Shown: piece by piece, positions 2,803 through 63,471 of the stretch
Layout: each line of letters begins with the position of its first letter
Position numbering within the stretch: the stretch's first letter is position 1
From: Massilia litorea
GTDB lineage: Bacteria; Pseudomonadota; Gammaproteobacteria; Burkholderiales; Burkholderiaceae_D
NCBI RefSeq assembly: GCF_015101885.1
Contig: NZ_CP062941.1
Coordinates: 3,100,001-3,164,000 of the forward strand
Direction of reading: 5' to 3'
DNA: 64,000 bases
Translations under genes and position numbers: made by a program
The notes under the pieces: generated by a model
What the model saw: the letters and a program-made list of their open reading frames with translations, nothing else
The model's database searches: none
What the model was told of the DNA's origin: nothing

Positions 2803-3954
2803 ATGTCCGCTTCCCCCCTGACTCTCGCCATCTTCTGCAAGGTCGTCGACAACTACGGCGACATCGGGATCTGCTGGCGCCTGGCGCGCCAGCTGCAGCG
2901 CGAGCACGGCGTGGCCGTCACACTGTGGGTGGACGACCTGGCCAGCTTCCGCCGCATCTGTCCCGCAGTGGACACGGACAAAGCCGGGCAGGTGGTGGAA
3001 AACGTCGCCGTGCGCCACTGGCGCGGCCAGGACGACGACTATGCCCCTGGCGACATCGCCGACATCGTCATCGAGTTTTTCGCCTGCGACATCCCGCCGC
3101 GCTATATCGAGGCGATGACGCAGCGCATGCCGCGTCCGGTCTGGCTGAACCTGGAGGGCTTGACGGCCGAGGACTGGGTCGAGGGCTGCCACCGGCTGCC
3201 GTCGATGCATCCGCGCCTGAAGCTCACCAAGCATTTCTTTTTCCCGGGTTTTACGGCCCAGACCGGCGGCCTGCTGCGCGAAGCCGGGCTCGAGGAGGAG
3301 CGGCAGCGCTTCCTCGGCCAGCCCGGGCAGGCGCGTGACTTCCTGCGCGGCCTCGGCTTGCCGGATGCCGAGATCGACGCCTTGAAAGTCTCGCTGTTCT
3401 GCTATCCGCATGCGCCGGTGGCCGCGCTGTTCGCGGCCTGGCAACACGGCAGCGAGAAGCTGACCTGCCTGGTACCCGAAGGCGTCGCCGCCGAAGCCGT
3501 CGCAGCCTTCCTGGGCGCGCCGGCCGGCGCCGGGGCGGTCGCCACCCGCGGCGCGCTCACCGTGCGGGTATTGCCCTTCGTGCCCCAGCCCGACTACGAC
3601 CGCCTGCTGTGGGCCTGCGACCTGAACTTCGTGCGCGGCGAGGATTCCTGGGTGCGCGCCCAGTGGGCCGGCAAGCCCTTCGTCTGGCACATCTATCCGC
3701 AGGACGAAAACCTGCATCACAAGAAACTCAAGGCTTTCCTGAACCGCTATGCGGCCGACATCGCGAGCCTGCAGGACGTGATGCTGCACTGGAACGGCGC
3801 GCTGGCCACGGCTGCGGACTGGCCGGCATTGTGGTCGGCGCTGCAGGCCGACCGGGACCGGATCGAGGCGAGGTCAAGCGAGTGGCAGGCGCGCATGTTG
3901 GCAAACGGCGACCTGGCTTCGAACCTGCTTGTCTTCGCCGCTTCACTTCGGTAG
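2803..3954 (+). CDS. earP: EF-P arginine rhamnosyltransferase EarP
   Basis: EarP transfers rhamnose from dTDP-rhamnose to Arg32 of elongation factor P, which activates EF-P to rescue ribosomes stalled at polyproline. The 383-residue protein opens with the family signature (FCKVVDNYGDIGICWRLARQL), and it carries the later block DLNFVRGEDSWVRAQWAGKPFVWHIYPQ typical of the nucleotide-sugar binding half (formerly DUF2331). The gene lies 69 bases upstream of efp on the same strand, the classic earP-efp arrangement. The substrate efp here has Arg at position 32, as this system requires. The dTDP-rhamnose biosynthesis genes are not in the window. Confidence 0.95.
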   Translation: MSASPLTLAIFCKVVDNYGDIGICWRLARQLQREHGVAVTLWVDDLASFRRICPAVDTDKAGQVVENVAVRHWRGQDDDYAPGDIADIVIEFFACDIPPRYIEAMTQRMPRPVWLNLEGLTAEDWVEGCHRLPSMHPRLKLTKHFFFPGFTAQTGGLLREAGLEEERQRFLGQPGQARDFLRGLGLPDAEIDALKVSLFCYPHAPVAALFAAWQHGSEKLTCLVPEGVAAEAVAAFLGAPAGAGAVATRGALTVRVLPFVPQPDYDRLLWACDLNFVRGEDSWVRAQWAGKPFVWHIYPQDENLHHKKLKAFLNRYAADIASLQDVMLHWNGALATAADWPALWSALQADRDRIEARSSEWQARMLANGDLASNLLVFAASLR

Positions 3955-4023
3955 GCACGGCAATCGTTACGTGATATCATGCTCTGTTACTGCAACCCCT
4001 TTTTTTAGATACCTCAGACTCCT

Positions 4024-4599
4024 ATGAAACCCGCAAAAGAGATCCGTGTCGGCAACATCATCATGGTTGATGAGAAGCCATTTATCGTGCTGCGTTCCGA
4101 TGTCAACGGATCGAGCCGCACGGGCTTCACCTACAAGTGGAAGATGAAAAATCTTCTGACCAATGCTCCGCTGGAAAACGTGTTCCGTGGCGATGACAAG
4201 TTCGACGTCGTCGTGCTGGACAAGAAGCCAGTGACCTACTCGTACTTCGCCGATCCGCTGTACGTCTTCATGGACGAAGAGTACAACCAGTTCGAAATCG
4301 AAGAAGAGAACCTGGGCGACGCACTGCACTACCTGAAAGACGGTATGGCATGCGAAGCCGTGTTCTACGACGGCAAGGCCATCTCGGTCGAACTGCCGAC
4401 CACGATCGCACGCCAGGTCGTCTACTCGGAACCAGCCGTCAAGGGCAACACTTCGGGCAACGTCCTGAAGGAAGCCAAGATCGAGAACGCCATCGAAGCC
4501 CACCAGCACATCGTCATGGTGCCGCTGTTCGTGAGCCAGGATGACACCATCGAGATCGATACCCGCACCAACGAATACAAGCGCGTCGTCCGTAACTAA
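4024..4599 (+). CDS. efp: elongation factor P
   Basis: EF-P binds between the P and E sites of the ribosome and promotes peptide-bond formation at consecutive prolines. The protein is 191 residues long with the expected three-domain beta-barrel pattern. The tip loop reads GSSRTG, with Arg32 at the position modified by EarP, in place of the lysine used in the EpmA/B pathway. The C-terminal signature [16 protein letters not shown] is intact. It lies directly after earP and is followed by its own terminator. Confidence 0.98.
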
Positions 4600-55557: not shown

Positions 55558-55633
55558 GCGGGAGTAGCTCAGTTGGTAGAGCGCAACCTTGCCAAGGTTG
55601 AGGTCGAGAGTTCGAGACTCTTCTCCCGCTCCA
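55558..55633 (+). tRNA. tRNA-Gly(GCC), copy 1
   Basis: A 76-base tRNA, acceptor GCGGGAG/CTCCCGC, anticodon arm CAACC/GGTTG around TTGCCAA (anticodon GCC), encoded CCA. Confidence 0.97.
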
Positions 55634-55718
55634 AAGTTTGCAGCAGTCGGCAGTAGCAAGCAGTAAGGGTTGTCTTGGAAATTGCCACTAATTCTGAGAT
55701 AATCGATGTTTCCAGAAT

Positions 55719-55794
55719 GCGGGAGTAGCTCAGTTGGTAGAGCGCAACCTTGCCAAGGTTGAGGTCGAGAGTTCGAGACTCTTCTCCCGCTCCA
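55719..55794 (+). tRNA. tRNA-Gly(GCC), copy 2
   Basis: Identical to the copy at 55558. The spacer before it is 85 bases and unrelated. Confidence 0.97.
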
Positions 55795-55834
55795 CTCCGG
55801 AGCAGCAGTAAGCAGGTAAAGAAACACACTCCAT

Positions 55835-55910
55835 GCGGGAGTAGCTCAGTTGGTAGAGCGCAACCTTGCCAAGGTTGAGGTCGAGAGTTCGAGACTCTTC
55901 TCCCGCTCCA
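55835..55910 (+). tRNA. tRNA-Gly(GCC), copy 3
   Basis: Identical to the other Gly copies, after a 40-base spacer that shares AGCAGTAAGCAG-like fragments with the previous spacer. Confidence 0.97.
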
Positions 55911-55939
55911 AAAAGCGTGTGGTTAGCAGTAACTCCTAA

Positions 55940-56015
55940 GCGGGAGTAGCTCAGTTGGTAGAGCGCAACCTTGCCAAGGTTGAGGTCGAGAGTTCGAGAC
56001 TCTTCTCCCGCTCCA
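55940..56015 (+). tRNA. tRNA-Gly(GCC), copy 4
   Basis: Last identical tRNA-Gly copy, 29 bases after copy 3. Confidence 0.97.
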
Positions 56016-56091: not shown

Positions 56092-56165
56092 GGCGAGGTA
56101 GCAAAGCGGTTATGCAGCGGCCTGCAAAGCCGTCTAGACGGGTTCGACTCCCGTCCTCGCCTCCA
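56092..56165 (+). tRNA. tRNA-Cys(GCA), rebuilt at an island junction
   Basis: A 74-base tRNA with acceptor GGCGAGG/CCTCGCC, loop CTGCAAA with anticodon GCA, and encoded CCA. Its last 48 bases (56118-56165) recur exactly at 61260-61307. Everything needed for a functional tRNA is present here, so the gene stayed intact after integration. It is the final member of the Gly-Cys operon. Confidence 0.96.
56118..56165 (+). repeat. attL: 48-bp direct repeat inside tRNA-Cys
   Basis: The 3' end of tRNA-Cys from the anticodon stem to CCA is the left copy of an exact 48-bp direct repeat (right copy 61260-61307). An identical tRNA 3' segment at both ends of a foreign-looking segment is the standard mark of integration by a tyrosine recombinase. 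Confidence 0.9.
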
Positions 56166-56884: not shown

Positions 56885-57481
56885 CTATTTTCCTGCCTCT
56901 TCCTGCATTCGATTAATCAGTCCCTCCAGACAGGCCATCAGCGGCTTTGCCTCCTCGGCCGAGAGCGCACCTGAGAAACTCACGACCGTGTCATATGGTT
57001 GATTCTTGTAGCGGGTGGCGAACTGCATCCGTTCGCCCTCTAGCAGTGCGGTGACCGCAGACAACGTACCGATGAAGTCGGCGAGACCAAGAATGTATCC
57101 TGGCGAGTCGGCAGCAAATATCTTTGTCGGGATAAGCGCTTTGCCTTCTGATTCTTTCGCGATCCAGAAGTTAGTCGGGCCAGGCAGCACGACCTTTTGT
57201 TCGAACTGCCCCTTTTTGAACTTGGCTCCGGGCGTCTGCAGCTTGCCAGCCTTAATAGCTCCCGCGGTCATGCCAAGACGCAGATTAAGAGAAAAGTCGT
57301 ATGCCTCGACCACGTCAGGTTTCATGTCAAGCACGACAGCGCGCATACCGCACGTGGTGTAACCGTTCGCGTCCCTGCCAATCTGAGGTTGGAGTTGCGC
57401 ACTTGCCGCTTGCATGACAACTTGGGCCTGTACGGGAAGGCTCAGCGTACTTACCAGGCCCATCAATATTAGTTTTTTCAT
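56885..57481 (-). CDS. exported hypothetical protein in the island
   Basis: A 198-residue protein with a clear signal peptide (MKKLILMGLVSTLSLPVQAQ), so it should be periplasmic or beyond. The mature part has two cysteines, one in GYTTCGMRAVV and one in PLMACLEGL, which could form a disulphide. A central block KKGQFEQKVVLPGPTNFWI and a helical C-terminus follow. I do not recognise the family. I used the ATG at 57481 because of the signal peptide; the frame is open 189 bases further. It is transcribed divergently from hxsB across a 188-base AT-richer region. Its place inside the island next to the Hxs operon makes it a candidate accessory factor, which is inference only. Confidence 0.72.
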   Translation of the reverse strand: MKKLILMGLVSTLSLPVQAQVVMQAASAQLQPQIGRDANGYTTCGMRAVVLDMKPDVVEAYDFSLNLRLGMTAGAIKAGKLQTPGAKFKKGQFEQKVVLPGPTNFWIAKESEGKALIPTKIFAADSPGYILGLADFIGTLSAVTALLEGERMQFATRYKNQPYDTVVSFSGALSAEEAKPLMACLEGLINRMQEEAGK

Positions 57482-57669: not shown

Positions 57670-59205
57670 ATGCACCCGCTTGTATTCCATCCTCCTTCCA
57701 AGAGAAGTCGCGTTGCGATTTCGACAGAGCGCCATTCCGAATACACGTCGGCCGCCATGCACAGGCAAAACCGGACGCTACCGTTCGACGTACGCACGCT
57801 TACGGATGGCGCCCTGGTAGGGATATCCGCGACAGGGGATCACCTGTTTCTTCATCAAGATGAGCTCGATTGCCTGCTCAACGATCCTGACAAGTTCCCG
57901 CCGAAGCGCAAGGCCGAGCTGGCGGCGCGCTTCTTTCTCCCTAACCACGGTCGCAACGTGGGAAAGGAGCGCCTGCTCGCCGCCCGCCGTGCCGCGAAAC
58001 GCGAAACCGTCGCCGCTGGCCCGTCGCTCCACATCATCGTGCCAACGCTGCAGTGTGGGCACACTTGTCAGTACTGCCAAGTTAGCCGCGCCCAGTCCGA
58101 CTCCGGATTTTCCATGACGCCAGCGGCGCTCGACGCCGCGTGCGAGCGCATCTGGGAGAGCGACGCAGATGTCCTGACGGTGGAGTTTCAGGGCGGCGAT
58201 CCACTGTTGCGCTTTGACCTGATCGTTCGGGCGGTGGAGAGACTGACCGACATGAACCATGACGGAAATAAGCGCCTCCGATTCGTGGTTGCATCGACCT
58301 TGCACCAGCTGACCGAGGAAATGTGCGCATTCTTTCGGGCACATGACGTGGTTCTGTCCACCAGCCTCGACGGGCCGGAACACTTGCACAACCGTAACCG
58401 GCCAGTGCCGGGTAGGGACAGCTATCGGCGCACCCTGGACGGAATCGCGCTGGCCCGGCAGCGCATTGGCGAACACGCGGTATCGGCGCTGATGACGACG
58501 ACTCGAGCGTCTCTCGAGTTTCCCGAGCAGATCGTCGATGAGTACGTTCGCCTGGGCTTCAACGAAATCTTCTTACGCCCCCTGAGCATTTATGGCTTCG
58601 CGAAGCGCAACTTGGCGCGGGTCGGCTATTCGCAGGAAGAGTTCCAGGTGTTTTACGAGCGGGCGCTGCAGCGAATACTGTGGTGGAACCAGCAGGGCGT
58701 CCCGGTGCGCGAAGTGTACATGTCCATCGTGATGAACAAGATTCTGTCGACCTTCGACGCCGGCTATGTGGATCTGCAAAGTCCGACTGGCGCCGGATCG
58801 AGCGTGCTGGTCTACAACTACGACGGCTGGGTCTACCCGAGCGACGAGGCGCGCATGCTCGTCGAGACCGGCGATGCGAGCCTGCGTATGGGCCGAGTAA
58901 CCGATTCGCTGGCCCAGTTGCTGTCTTCGGAAACGAGACTGCAACTGATACAGGCGAGCGAAACCGCGGCAGCCGACTGCACCTCATGTGCTTACCGCCA
59001 CTATTGCGCCCCGAACCCAGTGGACAGCCAGGCCCAGTTCGGCCGGCCCGACGTGCCGGCGCATCAGACGGAGCATTGCGGGCGTCACCAATGGTTGTTC
59101 GACACGGCGTTCGCGCTGCTGCATGGTGCTGACGCAAATTCGGAAGAGATGTTCCATGTATGGGCGCGGCCGAGTACGACGCAGGAGGCCGCATGCGACA
59201 GGTAA
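57670..59205 (+). CDS. hxsB: His-Xaa-Ser system radical SAM maturase HxsB
   Basis: A radical S-adenosylmethionine enzyme expected to modify the HxsA target in the cytosol. The iron-sulphur motif CxxxCxxC is in PTLQCGHTCQYCQVSR (about residue 130). EFQGGDPLLRFDLI follows as the SAM-binding GGDP/GGEP element. The C-terminal CTSCAYRHYCAPN with a later HCGRHQWLF gives a SPASM-like set of extra cysteines for auxiliary clusters. N-terminal LPFDVRTL and the LFLHQDELDCLL block match the HxsB opening. From ATG 57670 (AGAAG eight bases before it) the length is 511; ATG 57757 would give 482, nearer the family length. It overlaps hxsC by 13 bases. Confidence 0.87.
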   Translation: MHPLVFHPPSKRSRVAISTERHSEYTSAAMHRQNRTLPFDVRTLTDGALVGISATGDHLFLHQDELDCLLNDPDKFPPKRKAELAARFFLPNHGRNVGKERLLAARRAAKRETVAAGPSLHIIVPTLQCGHTCQYCQVSRAQSDSGFSMTPAALDAACERIWESDADVLTVEFQGGDPLLRFDLIVRAVERLTDMNHDGNKRLRFVVASTLHQLTEEMCAFFRAHDVVLSTSLDGPEHLHNRNRPVPGRDSYRRTLDGIALARQRIGEHAVSALMTTTRASLEFPEQIVDEYVRLGFNEIFLRPLSIYGFAKRNLARVGYSQEEFQVFYERALQRILWWNQQGVPVREVYMSIVMNKILSTFDAGYVDLQSPTGAGSSVLVYNYDGWVYPSDEARMLVETGDASLRMGRVTDSLAQLLSSETRLQLIQASETAAADCTSCAYRHYCAPNPVDSQAQFGRPDVPAHQTEHCGRHQWLFDTAFALLHGADANSEEMFHVWARPSTTQEAACDR

Positions 59206-60320
59206 GCGTCGAGGTAGGGATGGCCGCGGCGCGCGGCATCTATCGCGTCGTCGCGTTCGCAAACCTGGCGGAGCAGTGGCAGGACGATCTCCAGTTCCTG
59301 GTGCTGGCGCCCGACGAGGCGTCGTTGGCCCAGGTCGAGACTTTGCGTCAGAAAGGGCTTCGCAATATCGCGGCGGCGACGGCGCTCGGCTTGGAGGAGG
59401 GCGACATTGTCGACTGCGAACCTGATCGCGCGAGGGCGACTGTGCTGTTCCGCGAGAGCGACGTGCACCACAGCTTGTTCCTGACCAACCGCTGCAACAG
59501 CTACTGCGTCATGTGTTCCCAGCCGCCGACTCGTCATGACGACGGATGGCTGGTGGACCAGGCAATCGATATCGTGCGTCATGTCAGAGTGCCGCCACCT
59601 GTCATCGGCGTCTCCGGCGGCGAGCCGCTGCTTGCTGCCGCAGGGCTGGAGCGCGTCCTTGCGAGTATCAAGGACTGCTGGCCCGGGACGGACGTCGAGG
59701 TATTGACGAACGGCCGCCTGCTGCATGATGTCCGCGTCAAGGAAGCGCTGTTCAGCGAGCCGCCGGCCAATGTCCGCTGGCTGGTGCCGCTCTACGGGCA
59801 CGCTGACTTCCTGCATGATTTCGTGGTCCAGTCGCCTGGCGCATTCGACGAGACGCTAGATGGACTGCTTACCCTGCAGGAGATGCGCCAGCCGATCCAG
59901 CTGAGGATCGTGCTTATCCAACCGGTGCTCGACGTCCTGGACGAGCTGTGCCGCTTCATCGGGCATAACCTGCCGTTCGTCGAGTGTGTCGCCTTGATGG
60001 CTTGCGAGCCGACAGGGTTTGCGCTGGCGAACCGGGACATCTGTGACCTGGACTTGTTTGAGGCGGGACCAGCGCTGGAGCGCGCTTCGCGTGTACTCGA
60101 CCGATATCAGGTTCGGCACGTCTTCATGAACGCGCCGCTGTGTGCGCTGCCGCCGCGTCTTTGGACGCGGGCCACACGCAGTATTTCGGACTGGAAGAAT
60201 ACGTATGCCGACGACTGCGCGAGGTGTACGGTCAAGGACCGCTGTTGCGGGCTATTCGCGTGGCACGAGAAGAATTGGAAACCCACCAAGTTGAAGCCGA
60301 TAGAGGAAGCGATCGCATGA
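59193..60320 (+). CDS. hxsC: His-Xaa-Ser system radical SAM maturase HxsC
   Basis: The second radical SAM enzyme of the pair, 375 residues. The cluster motif reads LTNRCNSYCVMCSQPP (CxxxCxxC, about residues 105-116), and the NSYC-MCSQPP form is characteristic of HxsC. GVSGGEPLLAAAGL is the SAM-site element, and C-terminal cysteines (CARCTVKDRCCGLF) could bind another cluster. An ideal AGGAGG lies six bases before the ATG, inside the end of hxsB. The stop overlaps the hxsA start (ATGA), so B, C and A are translationally linked, as expected for enzymes and their substrate. Confidence 0.9.
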   Translation: MRQVSVEVGMAAARGIYRVVAFANLAEQWQDDLQFLVLAPDEASLAQVETLRQKGLRNIAAATALGLEEGDIVDCEPDRARATVLFRESDVHHSLFLTNRCNSYCVMCSQPPTRHDDGWLVDQAIDIVRHVRVPPPVIGVSGGEPLLAAAGLERVLASIKDCWPGTDVEVLTNGRLLHDVRVKEALFSEPPANVRWLVPLYGHADFLHDFVVQSPGAFDETLDGLLTLQEMRQPIQLRIVLIQPVLDVLDELCRFIGHNLPFVECVALMACEPTGFALANRDICDLDLFEAGPALERASRVLDRYQVRHVFMNAPLCALPPRLWTRATRSISDWKNTYADDCARCTVKDRCCGLFAWHEKNWKPTKLKPIEEAIA

Positions 60321-60892
60321 GCAAATTTATTCGAAATCTCACCCTGTTCATCGCTGGGCTGCCGCTCGCGACAAGTCGCGCCGCCGAGGTACCTGCGCCG
60401 CAGGCGCCTCGACTCGACGACCTCGATAAAGCGGTTTCGCTTCGGCCGCTGAACCTGGAGATGGACAATCTGTTTGCATCCCATCGTTCGCATTCGTCCC
60501 ATCGCTCGCACTCGAGCCACAGTTCGCACTACTCTGGGTCTGGCGCGAGTAGCAGCTACGTGCCCAGTTATACCCCGCCGGCGGCGCCTACCCCGTCGCC
60601 TGAGCCGGTGGTGACAACACGCGCCGCGCGGCTCACCGACGCAAACGAGGCGGCGATGGCCGCGAGCGCGAGACCGCCTGCTTTGACCGTCGACGAAAAA
60701 CGCCGGCTACAGGTGATGCGTGTTCAAATAAGACTGAACAGCTTGCACCTGTACGATGGGCACCTCGACGGAATCTTCAGTAGCGAGACGAAGGAGGCGC
60801 TCAAGCTGTTCCAGAAGGTAAAGGGACTGCCCGATACCGGGCTGATGAGTACTCCAACGCTGAATGCGCTTGGCATTTCGGCGGTGAAGTAG
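60317..60892 (+). CDS. hxsA: His-Xaa-Ser repeat protein HxsA (target of HxsB/HxsC)
   Basis: A 191-residue exported protein. Residues 1-23 form a signal peptide (ends ATSRAAE). Six consecutive His-Xaa-Ser units occupy residues 56-73, the His at 56, 59, 62, 65, 68 and 71 (HRS, HSS, HRS, HSS, HSS, HYS), followed by a Gly/Ser/Pro-rich linker. Residues 125-190 are a peptidoglycan-binding type 1 domain (VQIRLNSLHLYDGHLDGIFSSETKEALKLFQ, then GLPDTGLMSTPTLNALGI). The repeat is the presumed site of radical chemistry by HxsB/HxsC. The final product would be anchored at the cell wall. GAGGAAG precedes the ATG. Confidence 0.9.
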   Translation: MSKFIRNLTLFIAGLPLATSRAAEVPAPQAPRLDDLDKAVSLRPLNLEMDNLFASHRSHSSHRSHSSHSSHYSGSGASSSYVPSYTPPAAPTPSPEPVVTTRAARLTDANEAAMAASARPPALTVDEKRRLQVMRVQIRLNSLHLYDGHLDGIFSSETKEALKLFQKVKGLPDTGLMSTPTLNALGISAVK

Positions 60893-61259: not shown

Positions 61260-61307
61260 CGGCCTGCAAAGCCGTCTAGACGGGTTCGACTCCCGTCCTC
61301 GCCTCCA
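61260..61307 (+). repeat. attR: 48-bp copy of the tRNA-Cys 3' end
   Basis: An exact copy of 56118-56165, beginning at the anticodon stem of tRNA-Cys and ending CCTCGCCTCCA. The 5' half of a tRNA is absent, so it is not a second tRNA gene. It marks the right end of the island and is followed by the original chromosomal continuation. Confidence 0.9.
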
Positions 61308-61497: not shown

Positions 61498-63471
61498 TTA
61501 CAGGTTGGGGCCGAGATTCATCGTCGGCGAGGGGCGGTACATCGCGTGGGCGACGCGCACCTCGCTGGCTGCGATGTCCGCCGCCATGCCTTCGAGCGCC
61601 TCGAGCAGCCGGTGCGCCAGCGCGGCCTGGTCCTTGTCGAGCCGCGAGCGGTCCACCGCGTCGTGCCAGGTGCGCGGCGTGGCCCCGTCGACCGACTGCA
61701 GGGCCAGCTCCTCCAGGTTGCCAAGCACCGAGATGAGCCGTATCTCCTCGTGATTCGCCCAGCCGTCGCCGCTTGCGGGAAGAAAGCGCCTGCGCAGCTG
61801 GTCCGCCGCGCAGGCGCCGGCGGCGGCAAGATTGCCCACCTGTTCAGGATCCATGTTCAGATGCAGTCCGCCCTCGTCCTGCTTCAGGCTCAGATGGACG
61901 ACCCGGTCGCGGTAACCGGCATACGGAAACAAGATATCGTCGCGCCAGGACTGCATGGTGTTGACGATCGCGGTGAGGAAGGGCAGGATGCCGGCGCTTT
62001 CCGCCGCCGGCTCGGTCCAGTGCCTGCCGCGGCCGGCGCTGTTGTTACGCGGCAGGTAGGCACGCCCGTTCGCGGGACAGGCCAGCCTGTCGTCGATCCG
62101 GAAGCTCGGGTGTTCGCGTTTCAGGTTCACCGCGAAGGTGGGATGGCGCGGCAGCAGCGCGTCGAAGAACTGGAGCGGCAGGTTGCTGCTGATGCCGCCA
62201 TCGGAAAACCACACGCGTTTCAGGGGTGCCGGTCCGTGGCGGGCTTTCTCGGTATAGTCGAAGGCGTACAGCGGAATGGCGGAGAGCAGGATCGGGAAAC
62301 TCAGGCTCATGCGGACGGCGACGATGACCGGCAGCGCGCCGGCGCGCGGCAGGGGCAGCAGCTGGCGGCCGTCTTTCGTTACCGGACCGGGTTCGCCCTC
62401 TTTCGCGGCCGCGCGCAGGTAGTCCAGCACCGTCTCGGGGAACAGTTTGTCCCATTCGTCCGGATCGAAATACCAGGCCTGTGCATCGGCGCGAAAAGGC
62501 AGGGCATAGGGCGTGTGCTGGGATACGGCCGTCGTCACCACCTGCAGGTCGATGGCGCGTTCTTCATCGGCAGTCGCCGCGCCATGGTGCCACAGGTCGC
62601 CGAAGGTGAGGGGAACGCCCGGCGCCATGCCCGCCAGCTCATTCAGGTAGACGTGCAGCCAGTCGGTGAGCGCGGGCGCGCGGGTCGGCCCCATGGTGCG
62701 GCCGGAACACATGCCATGAAAATTGCTGCGCAGCGCAGCCAGGAAGCCGCGCAAGGCAGCGCCCAAGCCCCAGGCGCAGGACAGGATGCTGGCAAAAACG
62801 GCTGCGAGCAGCCAGGCAGGCGCGGCGCCCGGATGGTCGCGCCAATAGATGCCGGTGGCCAGCACGCCTGCCGCGGCGGCGACGAAGGCGGCGCTGCCGG
62901 TCCGGTCGGGGCCGGCAGCGCCGGCGCGGCCGGCCAGGGCCCACGCGATGGCGCCGGCCAATCCTGCCGCACCCAGTGCCGCCAGTTGGGAAATCGCTAC
63001 CCTGTGCCAGGGCAGGCCGGTGGCCGCGCTCACGGCTAGCGTGGTGCAGAGCAGGAGCAGGAGCGGCCAGCGGACGGCGCCGGCCAGCCGCAACAGCACC
63101 GAGCAGGCGGCCGCGCCAGGGTTGGGTGCGGAAACGGCGGCCAGCAATAACTCGAATGCGCGCCCGGCCGCGGCGATGGGCTGGAACAGGTGCAGCAGCC
63201 GGCTGCGCCCGCCGCTGTGCCGGCCACTGCGTGCGCCCAGCTGTTCTGGCAACTCGTCGAGGGCGTCGAAGGCGTCGGGGCGGCGCCCGGACTGGCGTCC
63301 AAGCTCCGCGGCGGCGCAGGCGGCAGCGGCAATCGCGCCCGCCGACGTGCCGCCGATATTCTTGAAACGATAATCACGCGCCAGGCGGCTGGCCAGGCGT
63401 GGATAGATGATTCCGCTTGTGACGCCGCCTTTCATGACGATGTCGCACAGGGGCAGCGTGGTCGGGTCCAT
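61498..63471 (-). CDS. patatin-like phospholipase with inserted membrane region
   Basis: A 657-residue predicted lipid acyl hydrolase. The nucleophile elbow GTSAG lies at residues 41-45 (Ser43) in FKNIGGTSAGAIAAA, with the oxyanion motif KGGVTSG at 14-20. The dyad aspartate is in WFSDGGISSNLPLQF near residue 420. Between them, about residues 135-250, is a long hydrophobic region with several likely membrane helices (PLLLLLCTTLAVSAATG, AALGAAGLAGAIAWALAG, WLLAAVFASILSCAWG), an insertion that would place the enzyme in the membrane. The substrate is not known. It is convergent with the island and stands alone. Confidence 0.82.
   Translation of the reverse strand: MDPTTLPLCDIVMKGGVTSGIIYPRLASRLARDYRFKNIGGTSAGAIAAAACAAAELGRQSGRRPDAFDALDELPEQLGARSGRHSGGRSRLLHLFQPIAAAGRAFELLLAAVSAPNPGAAACSVLLRLAGAVRWPLLLLLCTTLAVSAATGLPWHRVAISQLAALGAAGLAGAIAWALAGRAGAAGPDRTGSAAFVAAAAGVLATGIYWRDHPGAAPAWLLAAVFASILSCAWGLGAALRGFLAALRSNFHGMCSGRTMGPTRAPALTDWLHVYLNELAGMAPGVPLTFGDLWHHGAATADEERAIDLQVVTTAVSQHTPYALPFRADAQAWYFDPDEWDKLFPETVLDYLRAAAKEGEPGPVTKDGRQLLPLPRAGALPVIVAVRMSLSFPILLSAIPLYAFDYTEKARHGPAPLKRVWFSDGGISSNLPLQFFDALLPRHPTFAVNLKREHPSFRIDDRLACPANGRAYLPRNNSAGRGRHWTEPAAESAGILPFLTAIVNTMQSWRDDILFPYAGYRDRVVHLSLKQDEGGLHLNMDPEQVGNLAAAGACAADQLRRRFLPASGDGWANHEEIRLISVLGNLEELALQSVDGATPRTWHDAVDRSRLDKDQAALAHRLLEALEGMAADIAASEVRVAHAMYRPSPTMNLGPNL

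Follow-up and report, generated by a model that had tools for sequence, protein, structure and literature searches.

A compact His-Xaa-Ser operon without a detected HxsD in Massilia litorea, with His-Ser cyclophanes as its tentatively predicted product

The stretch of DNA analysed here, referred to as the window, comprises 64,000 nucleotides of Massilia litorea (contig NZ_CP062941.1, positions 3,100,001 to 3,164,000) and carries a three-gene operon, hxsB-hxsC-hxsA, which is, judged from its sequence, a genuine and intact-looking member of the known His-Xaa-Ser system. Three points are new relative to the first-pass annotation of the window: the companion gene hxsD is missing, the operon stands beside a tRNA-Cys repeat, and HxsB has a cluster layout that can be compared with those of other radical S-adenosylmethionine (SAM) enzymes. 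That the two radical enzymes, HxsB and HxsC, alter the histidine-serine repeat of HxsA is very probable; the chemistry and the function we infer. Our overall reading, a complete-looking, HxsD-free hxs operon that travels as mobile cargo and whose enzymes would modify HxsA, most likely by forming His-Ser cyclophanes, is tentative, and we give it somewhat less than an even chance of being right as a whole. The genes are the following (stop codons included).

57670..59205, + strand: hxsB, radical SAM maturase HxsB, 511 amino acids (aa); TIGR03978, 522.8 bits (cut-off 370)
59193..60320, + strand: hxsC, radical SAM maturase HxsC, 375 aa; TIGR03977, 325.8 bits (cut-off 267.9)
60317..60892, + strand: hxsA, His-Xaa-Ser repeat protein HxsA, 191 aa; TIGR03979, 159 bits (cut-off 121.65)

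The genes follow each other in the order B-C-A, with overlaps of 13 bases (hxsB/hxsC) and 4 bases (hxsC/hxsA), and the positions of the open reading frames (ORFs) bear out the three overlapping genes described in the first-pass annotation. Its assignment of the products to the HxsA, HxsB and HxsC families held in a profile search, where all three exceeded the curated NCBIfam cut-offs; the counter-case that it had named, a best match to sulfatase maturases, therefore fails, that model giving 73 bits versus 523 for HxsB. The CxxxCxxC clusters and GGD/EP motifs that it had ascribed to two of the proteins were also found, as C129xxxC133xxC136 with GGDP in HxsB and C101xxxC105xxC108 with GGEP in HxsC. 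The start of HxsB at 57670 (MHPLVFHP) is kept in the two nearest relatives (L002 and L003). Pfam recognizes Radical_SAM in HxsB and HxsC, and PF01471 in HxsA. A single HxsB and a single HxsA above cut-off are present in the M. litorea genome; a second match to the HxsA model is weak (34.8 bits) and covers the C-terminal part of the profile only.

The presumed target of the two enzymes is the repeat of HxsA, which is followed by a peptidoglycan-binding domain.

60482..60535, + strand: HxS core of HxsA, HRSHSSHRSHSSHSSHYS, residues 56-73, six consecutive His-Xaa-Ser (HxS) units
60710..60871, + strand: peptidoglycan-binding domain of HxsA (PF01471), residues 132-185, 47.7 bits (cut-off 23)

The run of six units, already counted in the first-pass annotation, is not what shuffling of HxsA produces: the longest run in 100,000 shuffles was 3 (6 shuffles), and none reached 4 or more. 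A scan with an HxsB alignment confirmed 156 relatives, of which the best 80 loci were taken from named genomes; together with the window they make 81 loci, 30 from the window's clade and 51 from its sister clade. All three hxs genes are found together at 80 of the 81 loci, and the HxsA core is likewise present at 80, the exception (L039) running off its contig end. The exact 18-residue core of the window occurs in 48 of the 80 HxsA proteins, the window included, and these identical peptides are encoded by 38 distinct DNA sequences; in the 47 others, 63–93% of the core bases (median 65%) are identical to those of the window. Since the peptide is identical in spite of such divergent DNA, the HxS peptide is, on this comparison, under very strong selection. 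Six units are found in 66 of the 80 cores, seven in 8 and five in 6; 79 cores begin with HRS and 70 finish with HYS. The flanks of the core are more variable, except for a short L(R/Q)PLN...DNLFA-like stretch directly before it in the window's clade. The core was found in Pseudomonadota and at one Verrucomicrobiota locus (L100), which has a core variant of its own. Export of HxsA is predicted from inspection of its N-terminus, MSKFIRNLTLFIAGLPLATSRA, and from the C-terminal PF01471 domain, which would also attach the protein to the cell wall. Two loci differ in the state of their genes. At L040 (9322-15666, from an uncultured Halomonas) about 5 kb of inserted DNA interrupts hxsC and contains a resolvase-like gene and a Tn3-like transposase gene, both named from reading of the ORFs. 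At L095 (Pseudomonas fontis contig, 3172-4584) the hxsB frame looks shortened, as the HxsB match begins well upstream of the ORF that carries the HxsB end.

The gene hxsD is the usual companion of the His-Xaa-Ser system and is not treated here as defining it. In the sister clade, where HxsB is 40–48% identical to that of the window, hxsB is preceded by a small ORF that bears an LND..LR-like motif. A profile seeded from these small ORFs matched 48 of the 51 sister-clade loci versus 0 of the 30 window-clade loci (E 1e-5); given the sister-clade origin of its seeds, TIGR03976, the curated model, is a fairer test. It was applied to 36 genomes chosen from the 81 loci. Nine of the 12 sister-clade genomes, which served as positive controls, gave a match at E 1e-9 or better, 7 of them over the cut-off, whereas none of the 24 window-clade genomes, that of M. 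litorea included, gave one below E 0.05. The three sister-clade genomes without a match are all from Alphaproteobacteria (L060 Brevundimonas, L093 Hyphomonadaceae and L096 Phenylobacterium). In a tree of HxsB (48 of the 81 rows, with L035, L036 and most of the mutually similar Pseudomonas rows left out) the branch containing the window is supported and holds 21 rows, to none of which an HxsD could be assigned.

Some relatives in the window's clade may nevertheless have kept a remnant. At 8 of its 30 loci an ORF of 95–160 aa, with an HxsD-like tail by eye, ends at most 36 bases past the start of the HxsB ORF, and at further loci other ORFs end near that start. A profile built from 7 of the 8 coupled ORFs (without L036, a near-copy of L035) reached 53.8% probability against HxsD, over a D..LR..I tail; when the ORFs were compared one by one, only that of L043 exceeded 5% (60%). 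Among 60 random control ORFs, four scored at least 99.95% (evidently HxsD, not individually checked) and the best of the others 1.5%. No NCBIfam HxsD match was obtained for L033, L043, L044 and L024, with the positive control L052 being matched, and the ORF upstream in L024 has no likeness to HxsD (0.03%). A worn HxsD is possible in some of these relatives; none is seen in the window. Nor was a further partner shared throughout the window's clade found. When ORFs of at least 90 aa were clustered over the 81 loci, the families present in at least 3 of the 30 window-clade loci consisted of hxsA, hxsB and hxsC, ORFs nested within these genes, and neighbours restricted to subgroups. From its sequence, the hxs system seems able to live without HxsD, and the conserved enzymes and core suggest that it still works in that state.

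The second new aspect of the operon is its position, between a tRNA-Cys gene and a copy of the 3' end of this gene; the two edges are 5.1 kb apart.

56092..56165, + strand: tRNA-Cys (gca), left edge of the hxs-carrying segment (ARAGORN)
61260..61307, + strand: 48-nucleotide exact copy of the tRNA-Cys 3' end, right edge of the hxs segment

About 3.8 kb further on, beyond the end of the window, the right-hand repeat region has a weaker match (contig 3164974-3165121, 82% over 148 bases). As the tRNA-Cys query gave no match at E 1e-4 at that site, this third copy, if it truly is one, is worn. As far as the tRNA-Cys, the left flank is conserved in three genomes of the same genus (L102-L104; 82–87% in long matches), and in the 18–19 kb compared for each of them the hxs segment and the sequence after it do not align. 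Only 3 out of 61 genomes of the genus, that of M. litorea included, have an HxsB above cut-off. The operon aligns with two relatives (L021, 78% over 4,014 bases; L022, 74% over 3,130 bases), in whose 17.5-kb loci ARAGORN detected no tRNA; a nearby tRNA is in fact not a rule, being found within the flanks covered at 5 of the 80 other loci. HxsB relatives were found in 410 out of 72,556 plasmid records (E 1e-40; 316 from Klebsiella, 326 typed as conjugative), with 30–46% identity among the matches listed, and in 2 out of 50,697 phage records (E 1e-20). Of the 6 plasmid and phage records viewed, 4 have HxsD adjoining HxsB, and the other 2 have an unnamed small ORF in that place. In the available text of two articles, hxs genes of a P. 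aeruginosa isolate are listed together with integrative-element genes (PMC8446631), and a His-Xaa-Ser system is placed in a variable Vibrio region (PMC6537148). On such sequence comparisons, the hxs segment is probably mobile.

Further observations concern mobility. On the conjugative IncF plasmid of Klebsiella L105, hxsDBCA is flanked by insertion-sequence genes; a Leptospira phage record (L106, 3990-7299) contains, as annotated, the full hxsA-hxsD-hxsB-hxsC set. The site of the tRNA-Cys resembles a hot spot for integration: a copy of its 3' end borders the hxs segment, and 44 of the 61 genomes of the genus contain at least two matches to a 281-base query around the right-hand repeat, although part of these matches could be second tRNA genes of the ordinary kind or lie outside the tRNA part. 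A 42-aa ORF directly after the tRNA-Cys, which by eye looked like the start of an integrase, was discarded as an integrase remnant, with neither Pfam nor tblastn support.

What the enzymes do to the repeat can be approached through their iron-sulphur (Fe-S) clusters.

58054..58077, + strand: HxsB CxxxCxxC (C129, C133, C136), SAM-binding cluster, invariant in 35/35 aligned HxsB
58843..58845, + strand: HxsB D392, opposite the Asp after the auxiliary-cluster Cys (YPC-D) of sulfatase maturase (alignment to 4k37)
58978..59079, + strand: HxsB auxiliary cluster motif C437xxC440x5C446...C470, invariant in 35/35
59493..59516, + strand: HxsC CxxxCxxC (C101, C105, C108), invariant in 27/27 aligned HxsC
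60141..60245, + strand: further HxsC Cys (C317, C342, C345, C351), a probable single auxiliary cluster, invariant in 27/27

In a HMMER alignment to the sulfatase maturase anSMEcpe, YPC-D of the latter stands opposite YPS391-D392 of HxsB. Residue 392 is Asp in all 35 HxsB sequences; residue 391 is Ser in 32, Ala in 3 and Cys in none, so that in HxsB one motif for an auxiliary Fe-S cluster and the invariant Asp are retained, and a Cys of the other cluster is missing. The layout was compared in 19 radical SAM/SPASM proteins, a small sample in which most are annotated (L114, L115 and L117 were left out). The auxiliary-I Cys followed by Asp is found in 7/7 sulfatase maturases, one of which (L127, unannotated) was so classed from a tblastn match, and the Cys without the Asp in CbpB and QhpD. 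The Asp without the auxiliary-I Cys is the arrangement of ChlB (as printed from PDB), 1/1 YhhB, 1/1 XyeB and 4/4 FxsB-type proteins, counting L111, which at 264.7 bits is under the FxsB cut-off of 370 and has two nearby Cys outside the aligned ligand columns. As far as these alignments go, the cluster layout of HxsB is that of FxsB, YhhB and XyeB.

According to the portion of PMC11002830 available, MscB makes a bond between Phe C4 and Ser C-beta, HaaB between His C2 and Ala C-beta, and YhhB between His C2 and Arg C-beta; an i to i+2 spacing is stated there for XncB, OscB and MscB. A title within the reference list of PMC12636437 terms ChlB a multiple cyclophane synthase. Since His-x-Ser matches the i,i+2 geometry, we rank His-Ser cyclophanes first, with a two-reaction model and serine oxidation behind; layout and spacing together favour His-to-Ser carbon-carbon cross-links. 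The cross-links proposed in the first-pass annotation are now better supported, through the likeness to FxsB-type synthases, but stay a prediction, and in the tree HxsB is placed outside those enzymes.

The following sequence of events is envisaged; the modification itself, its chemistry, the order of events and the surface location of HxsA we infer. HxsB and HxsC, as cytosolic enzymes, would work on the six-unit HxS stretch ahead of HxsA export, HxsB bonding each His, through a carbon of its ring, to C-beta of the Ser at position i+2, which would give three-residue His-Ser cyclophanes, and HxsC contributing a second change or completing the cyclophane set. Modified HxsA would then leave by the Sec route and be held at peptidoglycan by its PF01471 domain, so that the product would be a rigid surface segment with multiple bridges. 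The fullest form of this proposal, which we consider rather unlikely, is that every His-x-Ser unit becomes a cyclophane, giving an unbroken row of 5–7 His-Ser rings on peptidoglycan-bound HxsA: a repeat-wide, structural triceptide chemistry, independent of FxsB-type enzymes, with no need for HxsD, and spread on islands, plasmids and phage.

Several observations weigh against cyclophane formation by HxsB. In a tree with other radical SAM proteins (30 rows, including 11 of the 35 HxsB), HxsB is nearer to CbpB and QhpD, on long branches, and a single clade of HxsB with FxsB, YhhB, XyeB and GrrM is rejected (p-AU 0.009, to be read with caution because of the long branches). If both the likeness in layout and this separation hold, the layout arose more than once. 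The fold nearest to HxsB is that of a serine-oxidising sulfatase maturase, ahead of ChlB, and sulfatase maturase has the same Asp as HxsB D392. GrrM/OscB, also annotated as cyclophane-forming, lack the Asp in 4/4 cases and have a Cys at the auxiliary-I column in 1/4 (the CxxCx5C pattern missed GrrM, for which the alignment was used instead). The proposal gives HxsC no definite role, and the cross-link chemistry, the export of HxsA and its attachment to the wall are predictions.

The difference between HxsB and HxsC in fold neighbours and cluster motifs lends itself to another explanation, in which the two enzymes carry out two reactions, one being a cross-link and the other, for example, epimerising or modifying residue X or the Tyr of the last unit, HYS. 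The X positions are indeed constrained too (HRS start in 79/80, HYS end in 70/80), and we regard this explanation as doubtful but a serious contender. It is improbable that HxsB acts like an anaerobic sulfatase maturase, converting the Ser of each HxS to an aldehyde (or dehydrating it), after which the neighbouring His or HxsC would react: the resemblance in fold and Asp is offset by the missing auxiliary-I Cys, kept by 7/7 sulfatase maturases, and by the separation of the two groups in the tree, and oxidation of Ser alone would leave the equal constancy of His unexplained. Least probable by far is that HxsA is essentially a surface His-rich metal-binding segment and that the radical enzymes act elsewhere or on few residues. 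In its favour, regular His spacing close to a peptidoglycan-binding domain could bind metal, and cores vary from 5 to 7 units (n = 80); against it, X is restricted in the core, and the three genes would hardly be expected to occur together at 80/81 loci unless the enzymes act on HxsA.

Two further candidates were set aside. Ranthipeptide and sactipeptide maturases such as PapB, CteB and SkfB form thioethers from Cys, and 0/80 HxsA have a Cys between the fifth residue ahead of the core and the 30th behind it (in the part examined, which begins 45 residues ahead of the core, 3/80 have one at another position). As to a lead towards anti-phage defence, PADLOC matched only HxsC to viperin models, at 19–23 bits, with residues 95-184, in the radical SAM core, being the part matched.

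Around the operon, four nearly identical tandem tRNA-Gly genes lie upstream of the tRNA-Cys (55558-56015) and are also present in three genomes of the same genus. A divergent gene (56885-57481, − strand) codes for a small, probably exported protein with no Pfam or NCBIfam match at cut-off; a counterpart adjoins hxs in L021 and is absent from the matching segment of L022, and the gene occurs in fewer than three window-clade loci. Directly beyond the right-hand tRNA-Cys repeat is a patatin-like phospholipase gene (61498-63471, − strand; PF01734). Two ORF families, of 131 aa and 475 aa, occur downstream of hxsA in L033, L035, L036, L037, L040 and L046 and are absent from the window; these six loci are gammaproteobacterial and belong to the window's clade (Pseudomonas, Halomonas, Salinicola), and their two products are possible hxs partners there.

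The Hxs system owes its name to comparative genomics, and Haft and Basu 2011 is reportedly the source cited for it. In the part of PMC9062424 available, which cites Haft and Basu 2011, HxsB and HxsC 'putatively' mature the motif. In the open-access literature searched, none of the titles, abstract openings or passages covered reports the Hxs chemistry; such a report may be in print in subscription journals, which were mostly not covered. A three-gene version working without HxsD would be the smallest unit for reconstitution and would make laboratory testing simpler, and the cluster layout points to a definite candidate product: −2 Da per HxS unit, from a bond of a His carbon to Ser C-beta. If such a row of rings does exist on a protein anchored to the wall, it would represent a novel type of surface material.

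As a family discovery the window operon is ordinary; its value is that of a compact system in which a more precise chemical prediction can be tested. Compared with the His-Xaa-Ser system HxsABCD (NCBIfam TIGR03976-TIGR03979), it is alike in its gene cluster, its HxS core and the passing of the HxsA, HxsB and HxsC cut-offs, and differs in the order B-C-A and in the lack of a detected HxsD. From ranthipeptide and sactipeptide maturases it differs in its target, the core region being free of Cys in 80/80 HxsA. It also differs from the anaerobic sulfatase maturases, an identity rejected for HxsB, which scores 73 bits on their model (cut-off 349) and lacks in 35/35 the auxiliary-I Cys that they have in 7/7. 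With the three-residue cyclophane synthases FxsB, ChlB, YhhB and XyeB it shares the auxiliary-II motif, the absence of the auxiliary-I Cys, the retained Asp and an aromatic-x-residue target; unlike the FxsB-type synthases, HxsB stays at 41.5 bits on their model (cut-off 370), falls outside them in the tree and has HxsC as its partner, and its presumed target is an extended repeat within a protein that also has a wall-binding domain.

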